This document shows positions 3,001 to 30,422 of a DNA stretch of 64,000 nt, piece by piece. The notes below the pieces were generated by a model. That model saw only the letters and a program-made list of their open reading frames with translations, ran no database searches and was not told the DNA's origin. The stretch lies in contig NZ_AUJR01000016.1 of the NCBI RefSeq assembly GCF_000424325.1, positions 1-64,000 on the forward strand, written 5' to 3'. The DNA is from [Clostridium] clostridioforme AGR2157. Its GTDB lineage: Bacteria > Bacillota > Clostridia > Lachnospirales > Lachnospiraceae. Within the stretch, counting starts at the first letter, position 1, and each line of letters begins with the position of its first letter. Made by a program: the position numbers and the translations under genes.

Positions 3001-5215
3001 CCGCTACCCATGGTTGGGCTGCCACAGTTCCATCGGAATATATATAGTTTACTGTAAGCCTAATTAAATCAGCCGTCTTAGAATACCGGGCATATATATC
3101 GGAATCCCCCGAAATGTTCTGAGGGCTGGGATCCCATCCGACAAAAACATACCCATCAAATTCAGGCGCAGCGGGCAATATTGCGTCATGCCCTTCTTCC
3201 ACATATTGTGGTCCTGAAATCAGTTTGTTCTGACCATCCTCCGCATACCAGAAATTAACTTCATAATAATATCTTTCCTCAGTCTCAATCTCCGCATATA
3301 TGGAAAAATGATTTGTAACAAATGCAGCCTCATCACTGCCAGCATCTACGTTTGTAACTGTTTCCGCCGTATATGGATTAGGCTCAGCCGCATCCAGACT
3401 CAAAGTACTTATTCCACTGTTCTCGTCGTCCATATGATATACAACAGACTCGCTGCTGTTTATCTCAGTTCCCTCAAAAGCAACCCTAACGCTGCCCTTA
3501 GGCTGTATCTCATTTCCATCAGCATCAAAGAGTTTAACGTCCGCTGCGAATATATCTACGGCTGCCAGATTCTGTCTGTTCAGCTTCTCATTAGCAGCTT
3601 CCTTCATCAATTCAAGCTCGCTGTCATCAATAATCGCTGTCGCCTCGATATAACTTCCCTGTGGTACCACACCAGGATTTGCTGTCAATGTAACATTGAC
3701 ATTCTCAGCACCATCTACTGTAGCTGAAAGCTCAAGCTGTCCCTTCAAAACCTTAAGGTCTTTTAATTTGGTCACATAAGCCTTCGCTGTGCTGCAATAC
3801 CCCATGCCAACTATATCATTCTTCTCAGCCTTATTAACATTTTCTTCCGGTTTCATTTCCTCCGGCTTAGTTACTTCAGATGGAGTACCAGCCTGAACCG
3901 GCTCTGTCACCTCAGGTGTCTCAACTGCTGTTGCGGTCTCCTCATCCTCTGTCGGAGCTGTTGTGGTCTCCTCAGCAGATGTGCTTTCACTTGGATTTAC
4001 ATCCTCGCCTCCTGCTTCTGTTGTCGCATCCGGAACTGTAGTAGACGTTTCTTTTGTAGCTTCAGTTGAATCCGTAGAATCTGTGACTTCTGTAGGTTCT
4101 GTAGCCTTCTCAGTTGTTTCGGGTTCTTTTTCTTCTGTTTCTACTTCTGCCTTAGTTGTTTCCTTTGGTTCCTCTACATGTTCTTCAGCTGCATCCGCCT
4201 TAGGCTGTTCTGGCACTCCGCCTTCCTCGTTATCAGCAACAATTGGTGCATAATGACGAGTAATAGAAGCAACGGGTTCGCCGGTTGAGTTCTCCGGCTC
4301 AGCTACCTCAGCTTCAGAGGTTTCCGGTTCCTGAGTTTTTTCCTCAGTGGTTTCCGGAGCTTCTGTAGTTTCCGGTTCAGTCTGTTCGGCTTCTGTTGTC
4401 GAATCTGTCTCGCTTTCTGAAGGAGCCTCTGAACTGCTCTCCTCTGCTGCGGTCGTAGTTTCTTCCGGCGCTACAGTTGTTCCCTCATCCGGTGCTGCTG
4501 TAGTTCCTTCCTCTGGTGCAGCAGTACTTCCTTCTTCCGGTGCAGCAGTACTTCCTTCTTCCGGTGCCGCTGTCTCAGATTCTGTCGGAGCCGTAGACTC
4601 CTCCTTTGCCGGTCCATTGTCTTCCGCTGGAGCGGTGGTTTCCGTTGGCTTGGAGATATAATTGATTTCTTCTTCACCAAAAGCAGCCTCAAAACTTTTT
4701 ACCCTGATAGCTTTTGTTGACTTCAGTTTCCCACCTTCATCATCATAAATCGTGGTAGAGAAACTAACCGTATCTTCCCCATTATTCACATATAAGAAGA
4801 TAATCTCCTCATCGCCGGTTACCATATACATGTCATCGGCATCTTCCGGCAGACGTACGAATACTCTCAGTTCCGCATCCATACTGCCGCCGTCCGGATC
4901 CGGGAATACTTCTAATACTTTCCCCTCTCCGTAGAACAAACTCTCGAATTTAGCAATGTCTCCATTGGTAAAGTCAAGATCGCCCGGTGATATTACATTG
5001 CCGTTTTCGATAGCTTCTTCGATAGCTGTCACCAATTGGGAACCAGTCATTTCGAATGTGACAGACTCTGACGACGATGTAGCCGCATAAGCTGCGTTCA
5101 GGTCCGCACCCACATTGGTGCAAACCATGGCTGCCGCTAACGCTAAGGCCACCAGACGTTTCCGCATGTTATAGACTGATTTCTTTAACATGCAAGACCT
5201 TTTTCGTCCTTCCAT
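2..5215 (-). CDS. Secreted InlB-repeat (Listeria-Bacteroides repeat) adhesin, 3' end beyond the window
   Basis: An open frame of 1738 codons starts at the ATG at 5213-5215, behind AGGAG at 5223-5227, and runs off the left edge. Residues 1-40 form a signal peptide: a basic stretch, then a hydrophobic run with Ala-rich residues ending near AAYAA. A globular region to about residue 185 is followed by a Pro/Thr/Glu-rich stalk (about 185-470) with an eight-residue tandem repeat (APEEGSTA type). After a further domain come at least six InlB_B-type units, recognisable by the aromatic-x-GW motif (FVGW, FLGW, FAGW, FLGW, FIGW, FKNW) near residues 695, 890, 1175, 1245, 1535 and 1608, interspersed with YTVKY strands like those in MucBP-type modules. 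The family consists of extracellular adhesins. The ligand and the anchoring mode (LPXTG or other) are unknown because the C-terminus is missing. Confidence 0.85.
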   Translation of the reverse strand, partial: MEGRKRSCMLKKSVYNMRKRLVALALAAAMVCTNVGADLNAAYAATSSSESVTFEMTGSQLVTAIEEAIENGNVISPGDLDFTNGDIAKFESLFYGEGKVLEVFPDPDGGSMDAELRVFVRLPEDADDMYMVTGDEEIIFLYVNNGEDTVSFSTTIYDDEGGKLKSTKAIRVKSFEAAFGEEEINYISKPTETTAPAEDNGPAKEESTAPTESETAAPEEGSTAAPEEGSTAAPEEGTTAAPDEGTTVAPEETTTAAEESSSEAPSESETDSTTEAEQTEPETTEAPETTEEKTQEPETSEAEVAEPENSTGEPVASITRHYAPIVADNEEGGVPEQPKADAAEEHVEEPKETTKAEVETEEKEPETTEKATEPTEVTDSTDSTEATKETSTTVPDATTEAGGEDVNPSESTSAEETTTAPTEDEETATAVETPEVTEPVQAGTPSEVTKPEEMKPEENVNKAEKNDIVGMGYCSTAKAYVTKLKDLKVLKGQLELSATVDGAENVNVTLTANPGVVPQGSYIEATAIIDDSELELMKEAANEKLNRQNLAAVDIFAADVKLFDADGNEIQPKGSVRVAFEGTEINSSESVVYHMDDENSGISTLSLDAAEPNPYTAETVTNVDAGSDEAAFVTNHFSIYAEIETEERYYYEVNFWYAEDGQNKLISGPQYVEEGHDAILPAAPEFDGYVFVGWDPSPQNISGDSDIYARYSKTADLIRLTVNYIYSDGTVAAQPWVAEVQAGVNCNYTIASPEIAGFVADQTVVGFNGVYSGDQTVTVTYKGGETQYQVKHYLLNPDGSQPSEPVITETLTGEVGLNTQAAAKEYEGFTPKPIAQVAIGSDGRTVVEVHYERNLYTLTWDTGDGGSYIAPTEVVYGAAVDEPVEKPTRLGYEFLGWETVPATMPAQDTVVTAKWQSVAEADYKVVYWKETLTVGEYAVAEITYGRNGTVGDNIPTQIKNYEGFALNNQKSAGSVEITADGLAVKNVYYDREQYTIKFYRKDLIWWQEDASLRITARYGADVSKEWEKACAKDCWGPNKNDSVQYTLIANMPAENLNMYRKNAGSGKKIYYYVEGLTQGEKLTYAAFNASSNVHLTEEDKMPITGFAFDSWKQYSSDGSSDLWLYYTRNSYELFFENCATMNPEKIKFEAPLSTGKPDGEPGRPANIDNDYKFAGWYLDPGFTTAVDWDSRMPAEGVTIYAKWEIPKYDVMFETNGGDSIDKITVKKGDVLSDLPVPKKTGDVFLGWYTDPQMTKKYIAESKIVKDTILYARWESSDTVNYTVKYVSSADGSVIAPEETRNAELGSTVSEAAKSIDNYYPKATVLTVKITERDQEIVFEYTPVEKWTYTVKYLLEGTQDAVPGSSPFENETSDHELAVNFKSFEGYTLVSAPVVSVTKERPEAVFFYREKKAIYHTQHWFERVSYVDENERFGLHDITTTTGVESGIPVSAQALEPVPEGFTLDTSIAGTIASGTTNIQNILTMKLFYVRSSYDVKYVIDGPQPEGVIVPTGGSYKYKETVTLEPTLSVPGYTFIGWETDDVASLSNGKFMMPTHDVTLKGRFVENAAVEIRYVPDDAEHGTTTNNPDSVNPATGTPKGSVATAKAGYAFKNWTKDGEVVSWNAELKPEDIEKVGGVYVASEYVANFGVDDNGDQIPDEYQIKVTYSAVNGRVDLTEAQYVTLYKDDHYATKAEGGVGTLTEAQIAKATAANGYNQASESWNPEKPEAGTTQFTEDTH
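4462..4580 (-). repeat. 24-bp tandem repeat in the adhesin stalk
   Basis: About five units of 24 bp are visible, with starts near 4462, 4486, 4510, 4534 and 4558. Each encodes an APEEGSTA-type octapeptide on the minus strand. The units at 4510 and 4534 are nearly identical. Because the period is a multiple of three, copy-number change would alter stalk length without breaking the frame. Confidence 0.8.
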
Positions 5216-17451: not shown

Positions 17452-20400
17452 TTACATACCGTGCAACAGCGCCTGCACAATCAGATATTGGTCTTTGCCG
17501 TAGCAAGTTGAAAGCGTTATAAGTTTCTCATCCCCTCCTGGAATGATTCCCGTTTCATAGAGGGACGCTGCCCTCATCTTCTCAAGATAGGGCAGCCACT
17601 CCTCCTCCATAAAGTTAGTGCCGTAGGCCCCGGCGTCGCTCTGATGGCGGAGCTGACAGGAAAAGATGGGACATTCCAGCCACTTTCCCCTGTAAAATAT
17701 CTGTATGACAGGATTTTCCCGGAAAAAAGCTTCCTCACCATATTTTTTCAAACCGGCAAACATGCTTCCGTCCTTCATGTTATGCCCATACAGCACTGTA
17801 TTGTCCACAGCCAGGGGAACAGCCGAGGAATCCGCAAAAACACAGCCTGATATATGCTGTTCCTGGTAAAAGTTATGATTCAGATAATATTCATTATCTT
17901 CATGCCGCACCACCGGATAATCAATTTCGGTTCCAGGTACAGACAGCCAGAACTGGTATTCCGGATTGATGGAAACCAGGGCCGCTTCATTTAGGTTGGA
18001 CTCTGCACAGGAAGGTCCATCACTGGAATTTTCCTTCCCACCAGGGTATCCCTCCCCACCAGAATATTCCTCTTCATCAGCATACCGCTCCCCATCAGCA
18101 TACCGCTCCCCATCAGCATACCGCTCCCCATCAGCATACCGATCCCCATCAGCATATCCTTCCTGCCTCTCATTCACTCCCCATCCATATGCCTCATGCT
18201 GTACCGTACCATACATTCGGCGCCCATCAGCATAGTCCATCCCTGTTTTCACCAGAAAATGCAGGCTGAACACAACTCCCATGAAAAACATGAGCATAAG
18301 CACCGCCATACCATGCGGTCTGGTCCGCTTTATCATGGTCAGAACCATGGCTGCAATCAATACCACAAAACAAATCCCAACTGCAAACACGGTTATTCCC
18401 ATGGAAAATAACGGCTGCACGCTGTTTTTGATAACATGCCTCTCATCAATCCCTGAATCTCCAATCTGTCCGCTCTCTTCATCCCATTCGCTGTCATCCA
18501 GAAATACGTTCCTGCTGACCTCTCCTCCATAAACCGCAGTGCAGTCCGCAACCATTTTACGTCCAACCGCTGTCAAATTTCGGCACAGTACCCCATCATT
18601 TTCATAAATTTCACCATTCCACTGGAATTGGTCAATCCTGTACGCTTCCGAATCCAGGCCTGCCTGGCTTAAAATTTCCGCCTCATGGCCCATCAGGCTC
18701 TCCCTAATCTCCTCCTTCTGCGCTTCAATTCTTACCCCGCCGACTTCATAAAAACCTGCATCATAATCCGTCACCGTCAAATCCAGCCGAAACCCGTCCT
18801 CCCAATGCTTATCAGAAAAATGATAACTTACAAGGGGCAGCAGGACATTCCGTTCCTTACCTGATATATCGTCCCTGGCTGATACCCAGGCGGTTTGAGG
18901 GACAGGCTCTATGTCTTCCATGGAGGGATATACCCTCTTCCCTGAGACAGATACTGTATCCGTTTCCTCTGCCATCACATCAAAAGCCAGATAAATTGTT
19001 ATGGGTATCAAAATCAGAATAAATACTACCCATTTCCTGCGTTGACTCCATTCCCTCTTTCGTTTCATACATAGACACATAATGAAGCCCGCCATACATA
19101 AAACTGCAATTGCTGCCGCCGCTGCCACGGGCAGGTCGTCTCCGGTCCTTACCGTATCCCTGTGACCGGCTCCAAAATGATATGTCCCTTTTCCAAACCG
19201 GTTGCCCACTTGATACACAGCTGTAATGCTTCCGATTTTCCTTACCGGCGGCTTTTCCTTCCAATTATATATAATTACGCCGCCCTGTATGGTTGTACCG
19301 GCCTGCACCATTGCACCGTCCCGCATTATTTCGCCGCCCTGCGTCATTGCTCCACCCTGTATTCTCCCCTCTGCATCCAGTGTAAACTCATATACCTCAT
19401 CAGACAGCTCATACCCCTGAGGTGCCTCTGTCTCACGAATAACATACAGGCCGGGTGTTGCTAAATGGTAAGTATATGTACCGTCCGCTCCGGTTAACGC
19501 ATCGGTTACAGCTCCGGTTACCGCTTCGGATACAGCTTCGGATACACCCTTGCCCGCAGTCTCCGGCCCCTTGCCCCAAACACCGCTTTCTCCCTTTTCG
19601 ATCCTGAACCTGGCTCCCATAAGAGGCAGACCGCTGTCTCCATCCAGCTTTGTAACAGTAAATTCCAATTCCTTATCCACAACCTCATATGTACCCCTTA
19701 TAACATCGCTGCCATTGACTGTAAAACTGAATATGCCAGGATTTAATACATATCCGTCCGGCGCCTTTGTTTCCCGGAAGGTATATGTACCATTTTCAGG
19801 CCTTCTTATGCGGAATGCTCCTGTACTGTCGCTGACAGAGGTACCGATTACATGGCCCGTCTGGTCATAAAATGTGAATTCTGCCCCCTGGAGTACCTTT
19901 CCGGAAACATCTGTTTTCTTAAATGTAATGTACTCCACCTTTGGTCTTGGCCTGTTGCCTCCGCCTCCGCCGGATGAGGATGCTGTCCGGTTCTCAAACC
20001 GGAATACCTGAAGCATATTATGCAATACATTCCCATCCTCCTGGTCCATTTCCGGCCCAACTGTCCCTGACCATTCTTTTACCACAATTTCCCTGTCCTC
20101 TGTCCTCTCATATCCGGATGGGGCCTGAAGTTCATGGATGATATATGTGCCCGGCTTCAACCCGTAAAACCGCTGTCCGCTTCCTGCCTCGGATGTCCAT
20201 TCCCGAATCACCTTTCCGTCAGACTTATCAATGAGCTGCAATCTGGCGCCTCCCAGCAGGTTTCCTGTTTCCGCCGACGTCTTTTCCACGTCTACGATGG
20301 TTGTATAATTGCGCATGACCAGATGGGGAACTTCGGTCATGCCATCACTGATAGTAAATTCTATGGGAGTTTCATGCAGTTTATATCCCTCCGGCGCCTT

Positions 20401-23400
20401 CACCTCAACCAGACGGTATTCTCCTGCACTCAGGTTCTTTGTATAATGCCCCTGTCTGCCGGTCAGCCATTCCTCTGCTGTCTCCCAGCCGGATTCTGTC
20501 CAGCGCTCGATTCGTAGTACTGCGCCTTCCAGCATTTCTTCTGTATCACCTGACAGCTTGTCCGTGACTACCCGGTTGGAGTCGTTGGTGGGGTTATATT
20601 CCCAGACAATGATGTCTGTCAGCTCATTCCTATAATGAAATTGAAACTCATATGGTTCAAGGGTCAGCATGTGCCCCGCGGCTGCCTTTGTCTCACTGCA
20701 CACATAGGTATAAGGTTTAAAATTCCCATCCCGGTCCATGTATCCGATGGGTTGTGGATCAAACTGCGCCTGCCCCTGCTGGTCCGTGGTTACGGTGCCG
20801 CATATGGCGCCGGTTGTCTGGTTCACCAGGGAAAACTCAGCTCCCTGCAATTTATCATCCGGCTGGTCTGAGTCACTTTTTATGATACGGAGAATTCCAT
20901 CCGGGATTTCATCTGTCATTTCTGTTTTTTGCAGGACCCTGCTGTCCGTAATGGTAAAGGGAATATCTACAGACTGCAGGAATCCGTACGGGGTTGTTAT
21001 CTCCCTGAGGATATAGTCACCTTCCGGGATATACTCCAGTATATGCGGTTTTAAATCTCCTGGTTGAAAGCCTGGTGGGATAAGCCCCTGGTCTGCATCC
21101 TCCTCTGTGTACCTTCCGTCAAATCCCGAAATCCATACCGCCTCAATCTCCTGATATTGTCCATCTTCTGAGGGTTGGTGGAGCATAAGAGGTGTTTCCG
21201 ATACATTTCCCCTTTCATCCACCGGATAAATGACAAGTTTTGCACCGTTTACCTCCTTACCGCCGGTGATATCCACCTTGGAGACCTCCAGTCCAAGCGG
21301 CTTATCCCCCATCTTAAAATATTGTATCTCTTTTAAGTGTCCTGTTTCTTCTATATTAATAAGTATGGGTTCCGCCGTGGCATAGCCCTCAGGATTTTCT
21401 GTCTCTGCCAGCACATAATTTCCTACAGGCAGATACTCCAGGCGCACGGTCCCTTGCTCCGTATAATAATACCGTCCCTGATATGTGCCGGGAATCTCCC
21501 GGAAGTCATAATCATACTTCATGATCGGATGATTTCCGCCTGCGTCCGGGACCACGCGGCCTGTGGCCGCCACATCCTGACCATCCTTATAAGTAGCGGC
21601 CCGGAATGTGAATATCCTTCCTGTTTCATCGTACCTGGGAATTCCATTTTCCAGCACCGGAAATCCCTTTTCATCCAGTATTGGACGGTATAAGGTCAGG
21701 TACGCTTCGCTGTCCCCGTAGATTACATCACCATTTCTTGTGTCGTATTTCATAATATCAATGGACGTAAAATCATCCTCCATCTCAAAGCTCTGAACAT
21801 CCCCTGTTTCCAGTACGTCAATATTCACTGCCTCAGACTGAACATATCCCTGCTCATAGGGACAAATGGTTTCCTCCAGTACATAATATCCAACTGGGAT
21901 GTGGTCAATCCAGTGGGGTTCTGTTGTCGTTACAGGTTCCCCGTGTTCATCCATTTTCATGTTTCCGCTATCATCGTACTGGTATCCGCTAATCCATGAA
22001 GCATAGACCTGGCCTTTTCTGTATATGCCATCCTGTTCCTTATGGGGGCTGCCGTCACTGTCCAGACCGGCCCGGTACAGGGTCATGACCGCTCCCCTTA
22101 CTTCCTTCTGCGTCCGCACATCCAGCTTCGCAAATGCAGTCTTGGTAAATTCATTCTGCATGAAATATTTCTGTACCTCGTCTGTATCCCTAAGTACAAG
22201 CCCCATATACCTGGCCTGGATATATCCCTGGTCATAGGGGACTCCCTGCTCTTCAAGTATATAGGAACCAAAGGGCAGGCGGGCAATCGAATGTCTGGCG
22301 CCGGTAGTTTCCGGAGTTCCATAAGAATCCATGCTGCTGTCTGTTGTCCAGGATTCATCCTTTGTCACTACATTTCCGCCTGTATAATAGATGGGCAGTC
22401 CATTTTCATCATCCACTGCTGTTTTATTCTCATAGATAGTCTGTCCATTTTCATCTTTCAGTACCTGTATGGATTTGACCAGTATCTTATTTCCCTCATC
22501 ATCCACCGTGTATGCCAGCATACGGCCATAATCATCATAGACATATGCCATTCCGGTGACGGAATCAGCGAAACACAGCTGGTTTCCTTTTTTATCCAGT
22601 ACCAGCAGTTCTCCCGTATCCGGGTCTTCCCTGGTATCCACCTGGTTCAAATCATAGAAATACAGATTTACAGGATCATTATCCACAATGACGGTATCCC
22701 ACACATCCCACGATGCCGGATGTGTTTTCATGGCATTGCCCTGACTGTTTTCCTTACCAACCACACGTATTTCCTTATGGGTACCGGTATTTGTATCCGT
22801 AATCCCCGTTACCCTGCCGTCCTTAACAGCAACGCTTACGCCCTTATAGACGTGTTCCCCTGTTTTTTCAATTTCCATGGCTTGGTACAGGGACAATACG
22901 GCGCCGGATACAGAAATGTCAAACCGGATTCCCATGCCAGAAAAGGTACCATCCAAACGGTACAGCGGTTTTACGCCGGCCATGGCCTTAAGCTCCTTCT
23001 CCGTCCCCTCCACCATATGTTCTGAGTATTCGTCAAATGACTTAGTCACGTATCCATCCCACTGCATGGTTTCCGGATTGTAAGCAATATCCCTCACATC
23101 CCCCCGTTCCTCCAGCTTCTCTTTACGGCCGCTTACCTTATAAACCAACCGGTCCCCGGCGTCATTTACCGTGACATCTTTCTCAAAACCTCCGCTTGAT
23201 TCCACCCTGCCCTGTGCATCGGTCCTCTGAAGGATGTTCTGGTTTCCCACCAGGGAATCCCCGTCCTCCACTTTATGAATTTCCATCCTGGAAGGATAGT
23301 CCTCCACCTTTATCCGGCTGGCAGTCTGGGTCCGGACTTTATTGGAACCTCCTTCCACCGGAATGGCATACTGGTATCTCACAGCCGTGTCCTCCTCCCA

Positions 23401-26400
23401 TCCCTCCGTGGTTCCGTCCGCGTTTCTTCTTTCCCTGTAAAACGATACGCTGTCCGCATACACTTCAAATGCCACCGGGCGGCTCTTGACATAACCTTCC
23501 GGGGCCTGAATCTCCACCAGCACATAGACGCCTGCCCCCAATGGCTTATAAGTCTCAATATATCCCACCGTTACCTTTTTAACCTGACCGTCTATGACTA
23601 ATTCCCTGATTGTGGAGTTTGCCCTGAAAATTCCTGTCTCATTTCCCTCCTGGTCTTCCTGCCTAATCAGCTGGCTTTCATCATACTGCGGGATCCCATC
23701 CTTATCCAGACGCACAGGCAGGTCGTCCGTGCTCCCATTGTTCTTACCCACTCTCGGATACAGGATCCTTCTTCCGTCTGCATCCGTCACAGGATTTCCC
23801 TGCCAGTCCACAGCCTCGCCGTACAGCACATTTCCGGACCCTGTGACCGTGCTCATTCCCTCTTTCTCTACATCCCTCTTAGCCGCATATATCTTAAACA
23901 ATGCGCCGTCATGGATAATGGAATCGCCTGTCTCGGAATCCAGTTTCTCAATACGAAGTCTGGAATTATAATACTCGTCCTCAAAATCCTCCTGGGCAAA
24001 TGCCACGAAGTTAAAATCCCGGCCATTTCCGGAGGGAATCAGCGTCTCCACATTTCCCGTGTCCGGGTTGATTCTGTCCACCGCAGGGGGAAGCACGGTC
24101 CACGGAACCAGCATGGAGGCAAATTTACCGTCAATGGCAGTCTGCATCCCTTTCATCGCTGCCACCTGGTCCCTGACCTCCAACTGTCCGTCTGCTGTTT
24201 CATATCCGTCATAGACCACCCCGTCCAATATCCCTGCGTCCTCGCTCTGGGAGGTATATCCGGCATAATATCCCTTTACGGCATCATTTCTGCCATCCAT
24301 ATATTCTTCTTCATAGGGTGCTTGGGATGTCAGGCTGCGGCCCGGCCGCATATCCTTATCCAGACCGTATTTATATATCTCAAATCTTCCATCCTGTCCA
24401 TTGGCCTGTATGGTGTGGGTCTCCTCATTAAAACGTATCATATATTTGCGAATCAGGTCTTCCGGCGTATCCGTGCTGTCATACCGGAAATAGGGACTGC
24501 CTGTCTGATAGTTGACATCCGTTTCCCCTGTGCCTCCATCCTGGCCGATATCCGGCACAAACGGAAGGGTGACTTCCCTGGGACAGTCTCTGGTAAAATG
24601 CCGGTTTGCCAGCTCCCTGTCCACGTCCGCGGGAACCTGTTCCACAATAACGTATGTGCCATACGCAAGCATGATGGAGTTATTGTAATAATCATCCTTC
24701 CCATTCCTGGTATTGCATTGCAGTGTGGTCACATCACCATCTGCCCCTCCTCCTGCATCGCTGTCCCAGGCAATGGCCAGCCTGTCATCCAGTCCAGTAA
24801 AAATAGACAGATAGCTCCCAGCCGCATCCACGGCCCGAATGAGCGCCTTTTCGTAGGCCGTATCGCTGTTAAGTCCAGGTTCTGCTGCAAGAATTTCCAC
24901 TTTATAGGCATCTATATCATAGTAATCCACAGCAAACTGCCGTATTATCTCCTGTGGCTTTTTCCCTTTTTCCACCTGCACTGCCGCGTACATGGCGTCA
25001 AAGAATTTCGTGTAATCATAGCTTCCATCCTCTTTTGTTTCCAACAGCCGCTGTCCGCTTCCATCCCTGGGAGGAAGAAAGATTTTCTGGACATCTCCTT
25101 TGAAATCCGCTGTTCCTATATCTTCTGAAATGATATTGCCTGCGCTGTCCACAAAGATATTTTCCAGATTACTTTTCAGATATGCCTTGAATTTAAACTG
25201 ATTCAGCAGCTTTGCGCCCTGGGAACTGCTGCCTCTGTTAAACAACCCCAGCATTACGGTCAGCGGGTCGTTGTGGACAGCTCCGTATGTATTTACTCCG
25301 TCATAGGATGACTGGGAAATATCTTTTGTGACCTTTACGGACTGCTTTATGACTCTCTGCAATACCTGCAGCGGACTGGAACCAGTCCCGGCTTCCTGTA
25401 CCGGCTGATTCTGCCCCGGATAATTCAATGCCTGGAATACAACATAGCTTCCTTCATCCAACGGGGGAATCGTAGCAAAGGCGCTTACCCCGGCTCCTGC
25501 TATATCTGTCAGATACTGGCTGTAAGGCAATTCCTCCCCTTCCCAATCAATGGATTTCTCTTTTGTCACCACCCGGAATTCCGTATATACCGGCTCTGTC
25601 CTGTCATTCCAGTCCACAGAATTCTCCACATGAATCACATAGTTCCCTGTAGCCCAATCATAGACAGCAGAAACCGGCTCAAACCTATCTGTGTCATATG
25701 TCTCTGTCCTGTCTTCATACTCATAGACCCGCTCCAGGAGAGGAATGGGATTTCCCTCCCTGTCAAGGACAATATCCCCTTCTTTGTAAGTCTCATACAG
25801 CGGCTGATACACGGTTTCGGCCGCAGCTTCTATATCACTTCCAAAAGGAATGACCGTGTTTATTTCCCGTTTTTCCCCTATTGATACAACGGCGCTTTTC
25901 AGGCTGTATTCACCCTTTTGATACTCAATCCAGCAGCCAACCTTCCCGGCCGGACCCCCTGACACCTCTGCCGTCTTGCGGACATACAGCTTCCGGTTTA
26001 CGGAATCATAGACTGCGGGGAAGGCGGCATCGGCCAATGAATAATCATGGCGCAGCAAGGCAAAGAAGCTTCCCTCCTTCTCATATATATCTTCCACAGA
26101 CCCGCAGTCAAAGAAGTTATGGACCGTGTACCAATCCATGATTTCCTCTGCCGCCTGTGCATTGGTCTGGCCCGAAAGCCGGATTTTTGTCCACTGCGAA
26201 GTGGCTGAAACCGGTCTGTATCCAATCTGTCCCAACATGCCGTTAACCTGTTCTGACAGATAATGGGGTTCAATTGCCTGTCCCCATTTACTCATGTCAG
26301 CCGGTACAGCCGTACCGCTGGGATATGGGGCTGTCCTGAAACGGTAGGGCAGGGTCTCCCCATAGGGAATCCGCTCTCCCGTGTCACTGTCCGTAGCAGT

Positions 26401-29400
26401 ATCCGTCCGGATAATGGGATTACCGTCAGGCCCAATCTTATACTCCCCTCCTTTTGCCGTCTGATAGACAGGACTGCCCTGCTGATCTACCTTTGGTTTA
26501 AGAGAACTTCCCAAAACCACCTTGTATGTCTTTGTCTCTGTTCCGGTCCCTATTTCATAAAATTCCGCTCCCTGGGGATATCCGGTCAGGGTGATATCAT
26601 ATCCATTTTCAGTTTTGTAGCTCTCTACTATAAAATCATTCCAGGAACCGTCTGCATCCATGGAATTATAATCGGACAAACCGCCTGATATGCGGGCCTG
26701 CCCGGCCTCATGTATCCTGCTGACTGTATCCTGAGTACGGTTGCTTTCCTTTAAGGAAATGCCGTTGACAGACAATTCATATCCCTCTGACCTGCTAAGC
26801 TCCATGACATAATAACTGCCCATAATAAGGGGCCGTCCAATCCACTGGTCTCCATTGGAATACACATAATCGGGATAAACATCTGTGCCGAATCCTTGGT
26901 CGGATGAGGTGATGGACGAACCATTATAGAGATTCTCAGGTCCGGTGGCGTTCTCCGGTGAGATTATGTTTCCATCATCATTCAGTCTGGTGCCTGGTTT
27001 TTCCGTGTATGCCAGGAAAGAGGCGTTTCCCTGTTTATCCGTGGCAGCTACGGCCGTCAAATCGTTCTGATTATAAACAGTACCTGATTTACCATCCGGG
27101 TGAATGATATCCTGAGCCGCAAACAGGCCATAGACAGCGCCCTCCAGTGTGGCATCCCCCTGGGTCAGTCCGTAACTTTTGTCCCCGTCCGCGCGGTACA
27201 GCTCTAAATCCCTTTTATTGATGTGCAGCCTTCCCTCTGTCCGATGGTCCCATACCTTAAAGGTGTAGAGGATAGTATCCGGTTCCCCATAGCCCGATAC
27301 ATCCATGGACCCCAGGTCATCGTCCATAAATGACGGCAGGGATACTGTTATGGTGTCGTCGTCATCCTCTTCTCCGGAAAACAGGGATCTGATAAACCGC
27401 ACTGCACGGTTTCCTTCCCCATCAGGTTCTCCGGTATCTTTCTCAGTGTCTTCCGAAAAATATTCAACCGTGCCGAAGGATGGTGAGATAGGATTTCTGG
27501 CATATTCATATTCTTCATAAATATCACCTTGACTGTCATCCTCATCATCCCCATCACTTTGGCCGATACCGCTGTCCTTGTCTGTCCCGCTTTCTGTGTC
27601 CTCATCTATGCGTTCCCTTACAATCCCGCTTTTTTGAATTTCCGTATCTTCTGGTTTCTTTTGGGATTGATGTTTAGAATTATCAGTGTGTGCTTCTGAT
27701 GAAATGCTGGAAAATAGAATGGTTCTTCCATGTCCTGATTTAAATATATTAGGTGGTGTGGACATCGCAGACGATTTGGCCTGAAGTTTCCCGCTTTTCT
27801 GTTCTTCCTTGTTTTTGCCCTCGCTGCCTTGGCCTACCGTATATGAAGTTTCTCTTTTCTGATGATTGTCCCCTGATTTTTCTCTTCCTGGACTGTCGTC
27901 TTTCCGGCCTCCGCTCCCGGAATCCACATTTCCTGAGTTTTCATTTCCCGAGCCTCTGCTTTCTGAATTCCCATTTTCTGAACCTCCACTATCCGGATTT
28001 CCACTCTCTGAGCCTTCACTCCCTGAGTTTCCTGCCCCTGTGCCTTCACTTCCTGAGTTCTCTGCCCCTGAGCCTTCACTCCCTGAGTTCTCTGCCCCTG
28101 TGCCTTCACTTCCTGAGTTCTCATCTCCTGCCCCTCCACTTCCTGGTTTCTCAACCCCTTCATTCCCGCCTTCCGGACTTCCATCCGTCAGCTCCCCATT
28201 TTTATCCTCCTCACTTTCCTGACTTCCATTGCCAGCCTCACCTTGACCCCCGTTTCCAGGTGCAACGTCATCCTCCCCTTGTGTTCCATCTCCATCCTTC
28301 TGTTCTCCCGCACTGCCAGAGGCATTTTCCTGTTCCTGAGAAATACCGCCATCAACTGCTCCGTTCACCGGAGCCTCTGCCTCCTTCTTTTCCTTCTTAT
28401 CTCCCAATAGGCTGAATATGCTGCGCTGTTCCTCAAGCTCCATCTCCTGACCATCTGGAACCGGATATTTGTAAGACCTTCTTTCCCTTATTGCCACCAC
28501 GTAAGTGTACACAGGCTCAACCGCCTTCCCCACAAAAGAGCTGGGCCTATATACAGCTGACCGCGCACTTCCTCCCGCCTGGGCGGATGACAGTATAACA
28601 TTTTCTATCTCCTTGTCATCGTTGTGCAGTCCATGGAGAATGTATCCTGTCCGGGCTGTCTTTTCCTGTAAATGGTAACTGTATTCCAATTCTATGAACC
28701 GTTCATATGTCTCATCCCGATCCTCCAGCATGGCTTCCATAGCCGAGGTGTCCTGTTCACGGTTGTCCTCATCATGGTTCGGGGCATGGAAATCGCATGT
28801 GGCTGCGCACAATTCCTGTTCTGACCTCCACTGCCCGCGAAGCCGGTCATTTTCCTCATCACAGCTGCAATCCTCATCCTCCTCATGGTCGCACTCAATC
28901 CATTCCGGGGCAGGATGGCCCATGCAGTATGTTTTGCTGTAATTATAATATCTGGTATCGCTATGCCTTGCATATCCGTCTGTATCCGTGGTCAGGATAT
29001 CACAGATATAATCAGTTTCCGGTTCCGGCGACATGCAGTTTAAATAGACCTGTCCGCTGGTCCCATCCGGTTCACCTTCCTCATACCCCTGTTCATTTAC
29101 CTGGGAAAAATCAAAATCCTCCCACACGTTGAATACAGTTCCCTCTAGCGGCTGATTAGTCTCAGCACAATATTTCTCCAAATCAATGTTATAGTTGCTC
29201 TCAAATGTTTCAGAATGGCGGTATAATTCCAAATCACCGCTGCCTGACAGAACCGCATCTGTTCCAACCGAAAAGGAGACAGATGCCATGGGCCGGTTAA
29301 AATCCAGCCACCCCAACTGCTTTTGAAGGTTTTCAGATGCGGCCGGGGTAAATATATAAGCGTAAAAACGGTTTTCGATTCCCTGAATTTTTGCAGACAC

Positions 29401-30180
29401 AATTGTTCCCTGGGGTTCCTGGTTTCCATTGTACTGAAATGTCACACTTCTGCCATCCGGTGCCAGTTTATATGACCACTGATTATCCGGAAAGGACCAG
29501 GAAGTGCTCTGAAGCTGCGGACAGCTGCTGATATCCAATGTAAGCTCATAATGTCCTTCTTTCAAGACCATTTTTTGGACAGAACCAGCCCACGCAGGCA
29601 GGGAAGAGCTGCCCGTCCCGTTATACTCGGCTTCCCCCTCCAGAATGTGGGCCTTCATTTCCTCAAAATAGACCATGACCATGGGATCCCCATTCATTAC
29701 TGCCTGGAATTTTTCCATGGCCTGCTTCTGCAATGCCCAGTTATGTTCATATCCATTCATGCATCCCCAGTAATAGACCTGGACTACCCCGTAGCGCGCC
29801 GGAACATAGTAATTGTCCGAAACCAGCCACTCATAGGCAAGCACCATGGGCAGATAACGCTCAAATGGACCAATGACAGGAACCGGCTTTCCCGGCTCCA
29901 CATAATATTGCTCGTATTTCGCCGGACTTCCGTCCGGCAGTTTGTGTCCTTCCTGTATGCATAATGCCGGCAGGGCGCCTGCCCCTTCCCCCACCTGGTA
30001 GATGTTCATATCCCGGTGTGTCCTTCCAAATGCATTCAGATTTTTCCCCCGGAACACCTGGCGGTATGGGTTCAAATTAATCAAATCCCCGGCTCCGCTG
30101 GTGGTCCGTATTGCTGTACATACCAATACTGTTACAAGAAACAATGCCATTACGCGTTTCAGTGTCTTCATTATCCTCAT
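17452..30180 (-). CDS. Giant thioester/SpaA-repeat surface adhesin fused to a C-terminal class B sortase domain
   Basis: One uninterrupted frame of 4242 residues, start ATG at 30180 behind GAGGAGG. Order: signal peptide (1-30); thioester domain with C74 (PALCIQEG) and Q134 (VVQVYYW); a cysteine/acidic segment near residues 395-470; a Gly/Ser/Glu linker (about 610-870) with 10-residue repeats; then SpaA/Cna-B modules to about 3660, each with a lysine strand (LRIEKLD, FTVTKLD) and a glutamate E-box (YVLVE, YTFRE), about eleven in all. RTGDDLP at 3678-3684 plus a hydrophobic helix and basic tail looks like a sorting signal, but the frame continues: helix about 3716-3736, an outside domain, helices near 3926-3950 and 3958-3980, YADGER repeats (4008-4036) and a class B sortase domain (about 4066-4242) with H4133 (YGHNM) and C4226 (LSTCYG). 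The usual following Arg is absent. Adhesin attached to its own sortase is inference from architecture. Confidence 0.9.
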   Translation of the reverse strand: MRIMKTLKRVMALFLVTVLVCTAIRTTSGAGDLINLNPYRQVFRGKNLNAFGRTHRDMNIYQVGEGAGALPALCIQEGHKLPDGSPAKYEQYYVEPGKPVPVIGPFERYLPMVLAYEWLVSDNYYVPARYGVVQVYYWGCMNGYEHNWALQKQAMEKFQAVMNGDPMVMVYFEEMKAHILEGEAEYNGTGSSSLPAWAGSVQKMVLKEGHYELTLDISSCPQLQSTSWSFPDNQWSYKLAPDGRSVTFQYNGNQEPQGTIVSAKIQGIENRFYAYIFTPAASENLQKQLGWLDFNRPMASVSFSVGTDAVLSGSGDLELYRHSETFESNYNIDLEKYCAETNQPLEGTVFNVWEDFDFSQVNEQGYEEGEPDGTSGQVYLNCMSPEPETDYICDILTTDTDGYARHSDTRYYNYSKTYCMGHPAPEWIECDHEEDEDCSCDEENDRLRGQWRSEQELCAATCDFHAPNHDEDNREQDTSAMEAMLEDRDETYERFIELEYSYHLQEKTARTGYILHGLHNDDKEIENVILSSAQAGGSARSAVYRPSSFVGKAVEPVYTYVVAIRERRSYKYPVPDGQEMELEEQRSIFSLLGDKKEKKEAEAPVNGAVDGGISQEQENASGSAGEQKDGDGTQGEDDVAPGNGGQGEAGNGSQESEEDKNGELTDGSPEGGNEGVEKPGSGGAGDENSGSEGTGAENSGSEGSGAENSGSEGTGAGNSGSEGSESGNPDSGGSENGNSESRGSGNENSGNVDSGSGGRKDDSPGREKSGDNHQKRETSYTVGQGSEGKNKEEQKSGKLQAKSSAMSTPPNIFKSGHGRTILFSSISSEAHTDNSKHQSQKKPEDTEIQKSGIVRERIDEDTESGTDKDSGIGQSDGDDEDDSQGDIYEEYEYARNPISPSFGTVEYFSEDTEKDTGEPDGEGNRAVRFIRSLFSGEEDDDDTITVSLPSFMDDDLGSMDVSGYGEPDTILYTFKVWDHRTEGRLHINKRDLELYRADGDKSYGLTQGDATLEGAVYGLFAAQDIIHPDGKSGTVYNQNDLTAVAATDKQGNASFLAYTEKPGTRLNDDGNIISPENATGPENLYNGSSITSSDQGFGTDVYPDYVYSNGDQWIGRPLIMGSYYVMELSRSEGYELSVNGISLKESNRTQDTVSRIHEAGQARISGGLSDYNSMDADGSWNDFIVESYKTENGYDITLTGYPQGAEFYEIGTGTETKTYKVVLGSSLKPKVDQQGSPVYQTAKGGEYKIGPDGNPIIRTDTATDSDTGERIPYGETLPYRFRTAPYPSGTAVPADMSKWGQAIEPHYLSEQVNGMLGQIGYRPVSATSQWTKIRLSGQTNAQAAEEIMDWYTVHNFFDCGSVEDIYEKEGSFFALLRHDYSLADAAFPAVYDSVNRKLYVRKTAEVSGGPAGKVGCWIEYQKGEYSLKSAVVSIGEKREINTVIPFGSDIEAAAETVYQPLYETYKEGDIVLDREGNPIPLLERVYEYEDRTETYDTDRFEPVSAVYDWATGNYVIHVENSVDWNDRTEPVYTEFRVVTKEKSIDWEGEELPYSQYLTDIAGAGVSAFATIPPLDEGSYVVFQALNYPGQNQPVQEAGTGSSPLQVLQRVIKQSVKVTKDISQSSYDGVNTYGAVHNDPLTVMLGLFNRGSSSQGAKLLNQFKFKAYLKSNLENIFVDSAGNIISEDIGTADFKGDVQKIFLPPRDGSGQRLLETKEDGSYDYTKFFDAMYAAVQVEKGKKPQEIIRQFAVDYYDIDAYKVEILAAEPGLNSDTAYEKALIRAVDAAGSYLSIFTGLDDRLAIAWDSDAGGGADGDVTTLQCNTRNGKDDYYNNSIMLAYGTYVIVEQVPADVDRELANRHFTRDCPREVTLPFVPDIGQDGGTGETDVNYQTGSPYFRYDSTDTPEDLIRKYMIRFNEETHTIQANGQDGRFEIYKYGLDKDMRPGRSLTSQAPYEEEYMDGRNDAVKGYYAGYTSQSEDAGILDGVVYDGYETADGQLEVRDQVAAMKGMQTAIDGKFASMLVPWTVLPPAVDRINPDTGNVETLIPSGNGRDFNFVAFAQEDFEDEYYNSRLRIEKLDSETGDSIIHDGALFKIYAAKRDVEKEGMSTVTGSGNVLYGEAVDWQGNPVTDADGRRILYPRVGKNNGSTDDLPVRLDKDGIPQYDESQLIRQEDQEGNETGIFRANSTIRELVIDGQVKKVTVGYIETYKPLGAGVYVLVEIQAPEGYVKSRPVAFEVYADSVSFYRERRNADGTTEGWEEDTAVRYQYAIPVEGGSNKVRTQTASRIKVEDYPSRMEIHKVEDGDSLVGNQNILQRTDAQGRVESSGGFEKDVTVNDAGDRLVYKVSGRKEKLEERGDVRDIAYNPETMQWDGYVTKSFDEYSEHMVEGTEKELKAMAGVKPLYRLDGTFSGMGIRFDISVSGAVLSLYQAMEIEKTGEHVYKGVSVAVKDGRVTGITDTNTGTHKEIRVVGKENSQGNAMKTHPASWDVWDTVIVDNDPVNLYFYDLNQVDTREDPDTGELLVLDKKGNQLCFADSVTGMAYVYDDYGRMLAYTVDDEGNKILVKSIQVLKDENGQTIYENKTAVDDENGLPIYYTGGNVVTKDESWTTDSSMDSYGTPETTGARHSIARLPFGSYILEEQGVPYDQGYIQARYMGLVLRDTDEVQKYFMQNEFTKTAFAKLDVRTQKEVRGAVMTLYRAGLDSDGSPHKEQDGIYRKGQVYASWISGYQYDDSGNMKMDEHGEPVTTTEPHWIDHIPVGYYVLEETICPYEQGYVQSEAVNIDVLETGDVQSFEMEDDFTSIDIMKYDTRNGDVIYGDSEAYLTLYRPILDEKGFPVLENGIPRYDETGRIFTFRAATYKDGQDVAATGRVVPDAGGNHPIMKYDYDFREIPGTYQGRYYYTEQGTVRLEYLPVGNYVLAETENPEGYATAEPILINIEETGHLKEIQYFKMGDKPLGLEVSKVDITGGKEVNGAKLVIYPVDERGNVSETPLMLHQPSEDGQYQEIEAVWISGFDGRYTEEDADQGLIPPGFQPGDLKPHILEYIPEGDYILREITTPYGFLQSVDIPFTITDSRVLQKTEMTDEIPDGILRIIKSDSDQPDDKLQGAEFSLVNQTTGAICGTVTTDQQGQAQFDPQPIGYMDRDGNFKPYTYVCSETKAAAGHMLTLEPYEFQFHYRNELTDIIVWEYNPTNDSNRVVTDKLSGDTEEMLEGAVLRIERWTESGWETAEEWLTGRQGHYTKNLSAGEYRLVEVKAPEGYKLHETPIEFTISDGMTEVPHLVMRNYTTIVDVEKTSAETGNLLGGARLQLIDKSDGKVIREWTSEAGSGQRFYGLKPGTYIIHELQAPSGYERTEDREIVVKEWSGTVGPEMDQEDGNVLHNMLQVFRFENRTASSSGGGGGNRPRPKVEYITFKKTDVSGKVLQGAEFTFYDQTGHVIGTSVSDSTGAFRIRRPENGTYTFRETKAPDGYVLNPGIFSFTVNGSDVIRGTYEVVDKELEFTVTKLDGDSGLPLMGARFRIEKGESGVWGKGPETAGKGVSEAVSEAVTGAVTDALTGADGTYTYHLATPGLYVIRETEAPQGYELSDEVYEFTLDAEGRIQGGAMTQGGEIMRDGAMVQAGTTIQGGVIIYNWKEKPPVRKIGSITAVYQVGNRFGKGTYHFGAGHRDTVRTGDDLPVAAAAAIAVLCMAGFIMCLCMKRKREWSQRRKWVVFILILIPITIYLAFDVMAEETDTVSVSGKRVYPSMEDIEPVPQTAWVSARDDISGKERNVLLPLVSYHFSDKHWEDGFRLDLTVTDYDAGFYEVGGVRIEAQKEEIRESLMGHEAEILSQAGLDSEAYRIDQFQWNGEIYENDGVLCRNLTAVGRKMVADCTAVYGGEVSRNVFLDDSEWDEESGQIGDSGIDERHVIKNSVQPLFSMGITVFAVGICFVVLIAAMVLTMIKRTRPHGMAVLMLMFFMGVVFSLHFLVKTGMDYADGRRMYGTVQHEAYGWGVNERQEGYADGDRYADGERYADGERYADGERYADEEEYSGGEGYPGGKENSSDGPSCAESNLNEAALVSINPEYQFWLSVPGTEIDYPVVRHEDNEYYLNHNFYQEQHISGCVFADSSAVPLAVDNTVLYGHNMKDGSMFAGLKKYGEEAFFRENPVIQIFYRGKWLECPIFSCQLRHQSDAGAYGTNFMEEEWLPYLEKMRAASLYETGIIPGGDEKLITLSTCYGKDQYLIVQALLHGM
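18075..18164 (-). repeat. 18-bp tandem repeat (YADGER) in the sortase linker
   Basis: Four near-perfect copies of an 18-bp unit start at 18075, 18093, 18111 and 18129, followed by a decaying fifth. On the minus strand they encode YADGER/YADGDR hexapeptides, linking the last membrane helix to the sortase domain of the giant protein. The period preserves frame. Confidence 0.9.
27961..28140 (-). repeat. 30-bp tandem repeat in the Gly/Ser/Glu linker
   Basis: Units of 30 bp start at 28021, 28051, 28081 and 28111, with more diverged copies at 27961 and 27991. They encode SGSEGTGAEN-type decapeptides on the minus strand. They form part of a flexible acidic linker between the thioester domain and the SpaA stack. 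Confidence 0.85.
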
Positions 30181-30422
30181 TATTCCTCCTCGGTAAAAAA
30201 CTTTGCACTACATGCCTTTACACCTGCTCCTGTCTTAGTCCATCTCCTTGGAATCACCCCATCCATTATCCAGGCTCCTTCTTCACTAACCTGCTGTCCA
30301 TCCGGCGCCGCGGTATCTGAAATCATATATCCGTCCGGGCCAAAATAATAATGTTCCGCCATACTGTCCTGATTGCCGTCCAGCCACTGCCAGCAATTTT
30401 CAGGATAACTTCCATTGCCGGA
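30180..30422 (-). pseudogene. Remnant of a cell-wall-binding-repeat protein, stop codon overlapping the giant adhesin start
   Basis: Reading from an in-frame stop at 30423-30425 to the TAA at 30180-30182, the minus strand encodes about 80 residues. They match the C-terminal end of choline/cell-wall-binding repeats: CWQWLDGN, EHYYFGPDGYMISDT, then PDGQQVSEEGAWIMDG. No upstream part of such a gene is present, so this is a 5'-truncated remnant. An ATG at 30362 could still allow translation of 60 residues. The stop and the adhesin start share one base (TAATG), the arrangement seen in translational coupling, and the adhesin SD lies inside the last codons. Confidence 0.65.

Follow-up and report, generated by a model that had tools for sequence, protein, structure and literature searches.

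A 64,000-nucleotide stretch of the genome of [Clostridium] clostridioforme AGR2157, a gut bacterium belonging to the Enterocloster group (contig NZ_AUJR01000016.1, positions 1 to 64,000; hereafter the window) carries a gene that joins an adhesin, a second membrane protein and a class-B-type sortase domain, with no stop anywhere in its frame of 4242 amino acids (aa; 17452-30180, minus strand). As read from sequence, the arrangement is genus-wide in Enterocloster: a predicted thioester-type adhesin on a SpaA stalk with a sorting signal, then another membrane protein, which brings a signal peptide of its own and a stop-transfer helix, and finally a class-B-type sortase with an anchor helix. The fusion is real and not an error. 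Descriptions of sortases and substrates treat the two as separate proteins that meet at the membrane, and searches of an open-access library gave no report of such an adhesin-sortase fusion. We propose, at roughly even odds (probability about 0.5), that the gene encodes a self-contained surface-display polyprotein, in which signal peptidase would split the adhesin from the sortase and the sortase would then anchor the adhesin to the wall. From the N terminus, the protein runs through signal peptide, thioester-type head, SpaA stalk, internal sorting signal, three further helices flanking a middle domain, and the C-terminal sortase domain:

17452..30180 (-): the fused gene, encoding adhesin, middle membrane protein and class-B-type sortase domain in one open frame
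30185..30190 (-): ribosome-binding site AGGAGG, read from the sequence, serving the start at 30180
30088..30180 (-): N-terminal signal peptide, residues 1-31, by hydropathy; [AVST]xA site in 9/9 complete-start fused proteins examined
29191..30087 (-): thioester-domain-like head, residues 32-330 (C74, Q134, Q202), by motifs as defined in the available part of PMC4450167
27301..28383 (-): Gly/Ser/Glu-rich low-complexity spacer, containing tandem repeats at 27930-28159
19261..27300 (-): stalk of Pfam SpaA modules; across the entire protein Pfam counts 9 stretches, the best at 3418-3491
19066..19155 (-): internal cell-wall sorting signal VR-T3679-G3680-D3681-DLP (T-G-D codons 19138-19146; T, G and D in 11/11) and helix TM1, seen in the model
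18970..19065 (-): positive turn and internal signal peptide TM2 (3706-3737), with a V-M-A signal-peptidase-type site after A3737 ([AVST]xA in 11/11)
18514..18963 (-): middle ectodomain, residues 3740-3889, beta-rich in a confident model (mean predicted local distance difference test score, pLDDT, 88)
18238..18423 (-): helices TM3 (3920-3954) and TM4 (3955-3981) with a positively charged turn, by hydropathy and model
18026..18156 (-): tandem-repeat linker between TM4 and sortase, 18-bp unit (YADGER), the least conserved segment
17455..18000 (-): class-B-type sortase domain (His4133, Cys4226, Tyr4232; Arg in most members), by NCBIfam and alignment

The earlier note on this DNA had described adhesin and sortase B domain in a single 4242-residue frame, and this holds: the frame runs through without a stop. 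Adhesin end, middle domain and sortase share one frame in 12 of the 17 Enterocloster genomes sampled (G000, G001, G002, G004, G005, G006, G007, G008, G010, G011, G014 and G015), and the recurrence of the same open junctions excludes chance or sequencing error. Ten of these genes are whole, with both start and stop present (4067-4317 aa), whereas those of G002 and G006 end at a contig edge; the C-terminal parts of ten relatives, in an alignment that did not include G014, are 31-86% identical to the window's. Elsewhere in the sample, adhesin and middle-sortase protein occupy two overlapping frames in G013, the locus has broken frames in G009 and G012, only a contig-edge piece is present in G003, and G016 lacks such a gene. 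In G009 the flanking gltA and matE are in pieces too, which makes assembly errors likely there. That the fusion is itself an assembly or frameshift artefact has a negligible chance of being right: the broken G009 and G012 assemblies are what could be said for it, nothing in the window does, and it is refuted by the unbroken frame that 12 genomes from different species share. The locus is the same in 9 of 12 relatives examined, where at least one window-flanking gene adjoins (G001, G004, G005, G006, G007, G009, G010, G011 and G015); the flank comparison gave no match for G008 and G014 within the available DNA and, for G002, just a 55% match to a more distant gene. Named species among the records include E. 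citroniae, E. asparagiformis, E. alcoholdehydrogenati and Clostridium porci.

The sorting signal combines a Thr-Gly motif (TVRTGDD), the hydrophobic TM1 and a positive tail (KRKREWSQRRK), and its unusual internal placement was rightly noticed at the outset: 564 residues separate the motif Thr from the protein end, and the signal is C-terminal in the split relatives L061, L062, L064 and L065. T, G and D are invariant in 11/11 core fused proteins and are the sole zero-entropy columns among the 40 residues surrounding the motif. Because the motif would be expected to decay had fusion made cleavage pointless, this invariance counts for cleavage; it supports the suggestion that the enzyme anchors its own N-terminal part in cis and makes the other early suggestion, permanent display from the membrane, less likely.

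Four helices (by hydropathy and in the structure model) set stalk and sortase apart. Positive turns follow TM1 and TM3 in 11/11 fused proteins, which fits a sortase lying outside. The chain would thread the membrane with head, middle domain and sortase all on the outer side. Signal peptidase would cut after A3737, releasing the adhesin precursor from the middle-sortase part, and the sortase would cut between T3679 and G3680 and link the adhesin to a cell-wall precursor, the single chain setting enzyme and substrate 1:1 and side by side. By a signal-peptidase-type pattern, [AVST]xA, that was fixed, together with the stretch searched, post hoc after the helix data had been inspected, a site follows TM2 in 11/11 proteins, TM1 in 0/11, TM3 in 2/11 and TM4 in 1/11; the N-terminal signal peptide, as a positive control over a slightly longer stretch, gave 9/9. 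G014 was left out of this count and has A-V-A after TM2. The principal rival, which we hold possible yet clearly less probable, is that the chain would remain intact until its sortase domain cleaves the sorting motif in cis, TM2 being an uncut membrane helix. It draws on the same motif and topology evidence; the concentration of sites after TM2 and not after the other helices speaks against it.

Translation of the sortase, or of the middle-sortase part, from an internal start would leave the fusion on paper only. The earlier note had placed the beginning of the fused region at MKRKREW with a signal-peptide-like helix. The internal signal peptide stands, given its site in every core protein; the start does not, as Met is aligned there in just 3/11 fused proteins and MKRKREW does not rank among the window's top four in-frame starts by ribosome-binding energy. 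When the top four of every core gene (11 genes) are compared, no site is shared at the same junction save in the sister pair G001/G002. Candidate sites in single genomes, given below, speak for an internal start, which we nevertheless hold very improbable. Motif invariance, turn charges, the TM2 site and the lack of a recurrent internal start together favour the split polyprotein.

The C-terminal domain matches Pfam Sortase (1.9e-10), its beta-barrel has class B enzymes as its nearest structures, and the catalytic His4133 and Cys4226 (in TLxTC) are invariant in 11/11 fused proteins. Several points weigh against the split polyprotein. The match to the NCBIfam class B sortase model TIGR03064, at 3.2e-38, scores 131.4 bits, below the curated cut-off of 153.75. 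The catalytic Arg of strand beta8 is Tyr in the window (Tyr4232), G004 and G015, and Arg in the other 8/11 fused proteins. Beyond the post hoc choice of pattern, A-x-A is weak evidence alone and may be an ancestral signal-peptide relic, and overlapping or extra hydrophobic stretches in G002, G007, G008 and G011 were chosen among by hand. The side after TM4 has a charge of 0 to +4, which in G001 and G005 is not below that of the preceding turn; with this mildly positive far side, the charge rule is weaker at TM4. A Shine-Dalgarno-like stretch precedes a TTG inside TM2 of G001, and a weaker one an ATG there in G002; G014 has two strong sites, AAAAGGAGGGGATGAT-GTG 292 codons from the end, before the sortase part, and a stronger one at 475, before the middle part. 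The ranking of starts also has no yardstick, the energies of the true starts not being in the comparison. G014 (E. asparagiformis) is altogether a weaker case of fusion, with three helices, a possible internal start and no matching flanks.

The SrtB of G073, a two-gene relative, also falls narrowly below the TIGR03064 cut-off (152.7 bits). The Tyr, which the original class B sortase reading had overlooked, is why we name the window's domain class-B-type and not an active class B sortase. Among 80 named loci, the active-site end is visible for 70, and 2 of these 70 lack the Arg by eye (L073, which is G015, and L140). L140 (1592-2506) is a stand-alone class-B-like sortase from a Clostridia metagenome-assembled genome, with Tyr at the catalytic Arg position and an Arg three residues earlier. 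The SrtBs of C. difficile and C. perfringens are stand-alone and have the catalytic Arg, whereas the window's domain is fused and has Tyr instead; the Arg lies at Cys+8 in C. difficile SrtB and at Cys+6 in those fused members that have it.

The substitution bears on whether the sortase still processes the adhesin at all. If it did not, it would serve as membrane anchor or structural part, and in the window's clade as a dead enzyme, a reading to which the Arg-to-Tyr change in the window, G004 and G015 lends some weight, since the available text of PMC4371152 terms the conserved Arg essential. We consider this unlikely given the invariant T-G-D, His and Cys in 11/11 and the ratio of nonsynonymous to synonymous substitution rates (dN/dS) of the Tyr-clade sortase, 0.08-0.10 over three pairs. 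Three stalk segments of the clade have dN/dS of 0.11-0.27, all above the sortase, and the linker reaches 0.72 (undefined in one pair). The sortase domain is thus strongly constrained despite its Tyr, which argues that it is retained for some role. Relatives with Cys, His and Arg would be expected to perform ordinary transpeptidation; in the Tyr clade the reaction may be slower, altered or lost.

The sortase might instead act mainly in trans, either on other proteins with sorting signals or by joining adhesins to one another as a polymer. In favour of this, a membrane-held sortase would persist past its first turnover, and the class B sortase Spy0129 takes part in pilus biogenesis according to the title of 3psq. 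Against it, the 13 other open reading frames scanned in the window, which are metabolic, repair, transport and similar genes, include no further SpaA or sortase gene, and four other sortase-domain matches lie elsewhere in the window's genome. We regard mainly trans action as decidedly unlikely.

Returning to the split polyprotein, a fuller version of it, held tentatively and at somewhat less than even odds, is that the gene encodes a natural sortase-substrate polyprotein of adhesin, helper of unrecognised fold and dedicated sortase, in which signal peptidase would make the split, the sortase would anchor its own former N-terminal half, and the sortase of one clade would work, or have taken on a new role, without the catalytic Arg. 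The conserved fusion supplies a natural one-to-one pair in which substrate choice, processing order and turnover are directly testable, it could model self-anchoring display proteins, and the Tyr-for-Arg clade offers a natural experiment on whether the catalytic Arg can be dispensed with. A partial parallel is the cytochrome b/c1 gene fbcH, which encodes a bacterial membrane polyprotein split by signal peptidase. Like the present gene, fbcH has an internal signal peptide within a single open frame, but both its products are respiratory subunits, whereas here one product would be an enzyme acting on the other.

At the other end of the protein, the head matches the thioester-domain motifs, which the accessible part of PMC4450167 defines to include a [YFL]C-phi-zeta Cys and a phi-Q-zeta-phi-phi Gln, at LC74IQ, V-Q-x-x-Y-W at 134 and VQ202KMV. 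The motif Cys and Gln are invariant in 10/10 aligned members. Pfam TED (PF08341) has no match in the window head and a weak one (E=0.014) in 1/10 members, and profile comparison gave no PDB match for the head, so that the thioester domain of the earlier note is supported by its motifs and gains little from Pfam. The SpaA modules of that note are confirmed (Pfam, 7.4e-98), in 9 stretches and not "about eleven". Like the TIE-type adhesins SfbI and Cpa, as presented in the available part of PMC4450167, the fused protein has an N-terminal thioester-type head (Cys, TQxxW-like helix and Gln motifs), a modular stalk and a sorting signal; it departs from them in that this signal lies inside the chain, with another membrane protein and a sortase domain after it.

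For the middle domain, neither Pfam nor NCBIfam gives an accepted match, and PDB gives no clear one. Apart from the full fusion, 13/150 family genomes encode it, either as a protein of ~300-365 aa or within a larger frame that has no sortase match. Other Lachnospiraceae, as shown for Hungatella and a second genus, carry adhesin, middle protein and sortase as individual genes of a single cluster. G073, G086 (Hungatella hathewayi), G360, G400 (H. effluvii) have an adhesin of 4465-4668 aa with its own sorting signal and stop, then a separate SrtB of 250-295 aa; the two frames overlap in G073, G086 and G400 and are 219 bases apart in G360. In G073 and G086 the middle domain has a gene of its own upstream in the adhesin cluster; the product (334 and 305 aa) is hydrophobic at its N-terminus and has a helix at its C-terminus. 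Two long secreted-type proteins, scanned in G073 and bearing choline-binding repeats there, are encoded between this gene and that of the adhesin. The fusion ties the middle membrane domain to sortase function, since two other genera have these three parts separately within one cluster. Comparing split with fused relatives therefore yielded both outcomes, separate genes in other genera and joined ones in Enterocloster. It also revises the proposal that two ancestral genes merged: because the parts are separate in one cluster elsewhere, and the protein of signal peptide, ectodomain and helix that lies between adhesin and sortase exists alone, the merger was of three genes.

The simplest reading is that the middle, adhesin and sortase genes of one cluster were joined in an Enterocloster ancestor. 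In the sortase tree, the adhesin-linked sortases form one clade (23 rows) with support of 97 in the Shimodaira-Hasegawa-like approximate likelihood-ratio test (SH-aLRT). Inside this clade the core fused sortases and two fragments fall on one side of a branch with SH-aLRT of only 89%, in a tree from which 28 of 108 sortase rows had been removed beforehand. The G014 sortase sits apart from this core on a long branch, and the joining in G014 may be separate. These points, too, weigh against the split polyprotein. In the two-gene abpA-srtB system of oral streptococci, as described in the available part of PMC4974636, and in the giant-adhesin/SrtB pairs of G073, G086, G360 and G400, a class B sortase is encoded beside its adhesin, as in the fusion, and the SrtBs of the giant-adhesin pairs share a clade with the fused sortases. 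Unlike the fusion, both are separate genes with their own stops and starts, and in G073 and G086 the middle protein is separate too.

Other arrangements of these parts were also seen. In G005, L046 (1147-18945) encodes a 5268-aa protein in which adhesin and middle domain are fused; the sortase is encoded separately, 1.2 kb further along, and has Lys at the catalytic Arg position. L118 (11230-12498; E. asparagiformis) is a second, free middle-domain protein of 422 aa, in another frame and overlapping the end of the fused gene. The window's own genome has a stand-alone middle-domain membrane protein of 345 aa on contig C12 (L049, 1846-2883, minus strand), next to genes that, from reading their sequences, we take to be purine nucleoside phosphorylase-like and polysaccharide-deacetylase-like. 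In another genus, the 1639-aa protein L050 (771-5690; G029) has an LPXTG-type signal (16.1 bits, cut-off 15.9), two helices and then a SrtB domain (178.6 bits, above the curated cut-off); this shorter join is a separate one, placed elsewhere in the sortase tree. L069 (2346-7058; G016) has a signal peptide and a C-terminal sortase domain in 1570 aa, with no other membrane helix by hydropathy, and L148 (9209-11818; Candidatus Aristotella avistercoris) has, in 869 aa, a sortase domain and, after it, another long domain, which presumably resembles the SpoIID/LytB type.

Two spacers of the window's fused gene hold tandem repeats, in 18-bp units at 18026-18156 and 30/60-bp units at 27930-28159, and they are the least conserved protein parts between G000, G004 and G015. 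One further feature adjoins the gene:

30180..30362 (-): relic of 60 aa with a choline-binding-type repeat (1e-5, just under the cut-off), directly upstream of the fused gene

Longer secreted-type genes whose N-terminal part is similar to this relic lie upstream in G001, G007, G008 and G014, and the one in G007 alone has a Pfam CAP domain.
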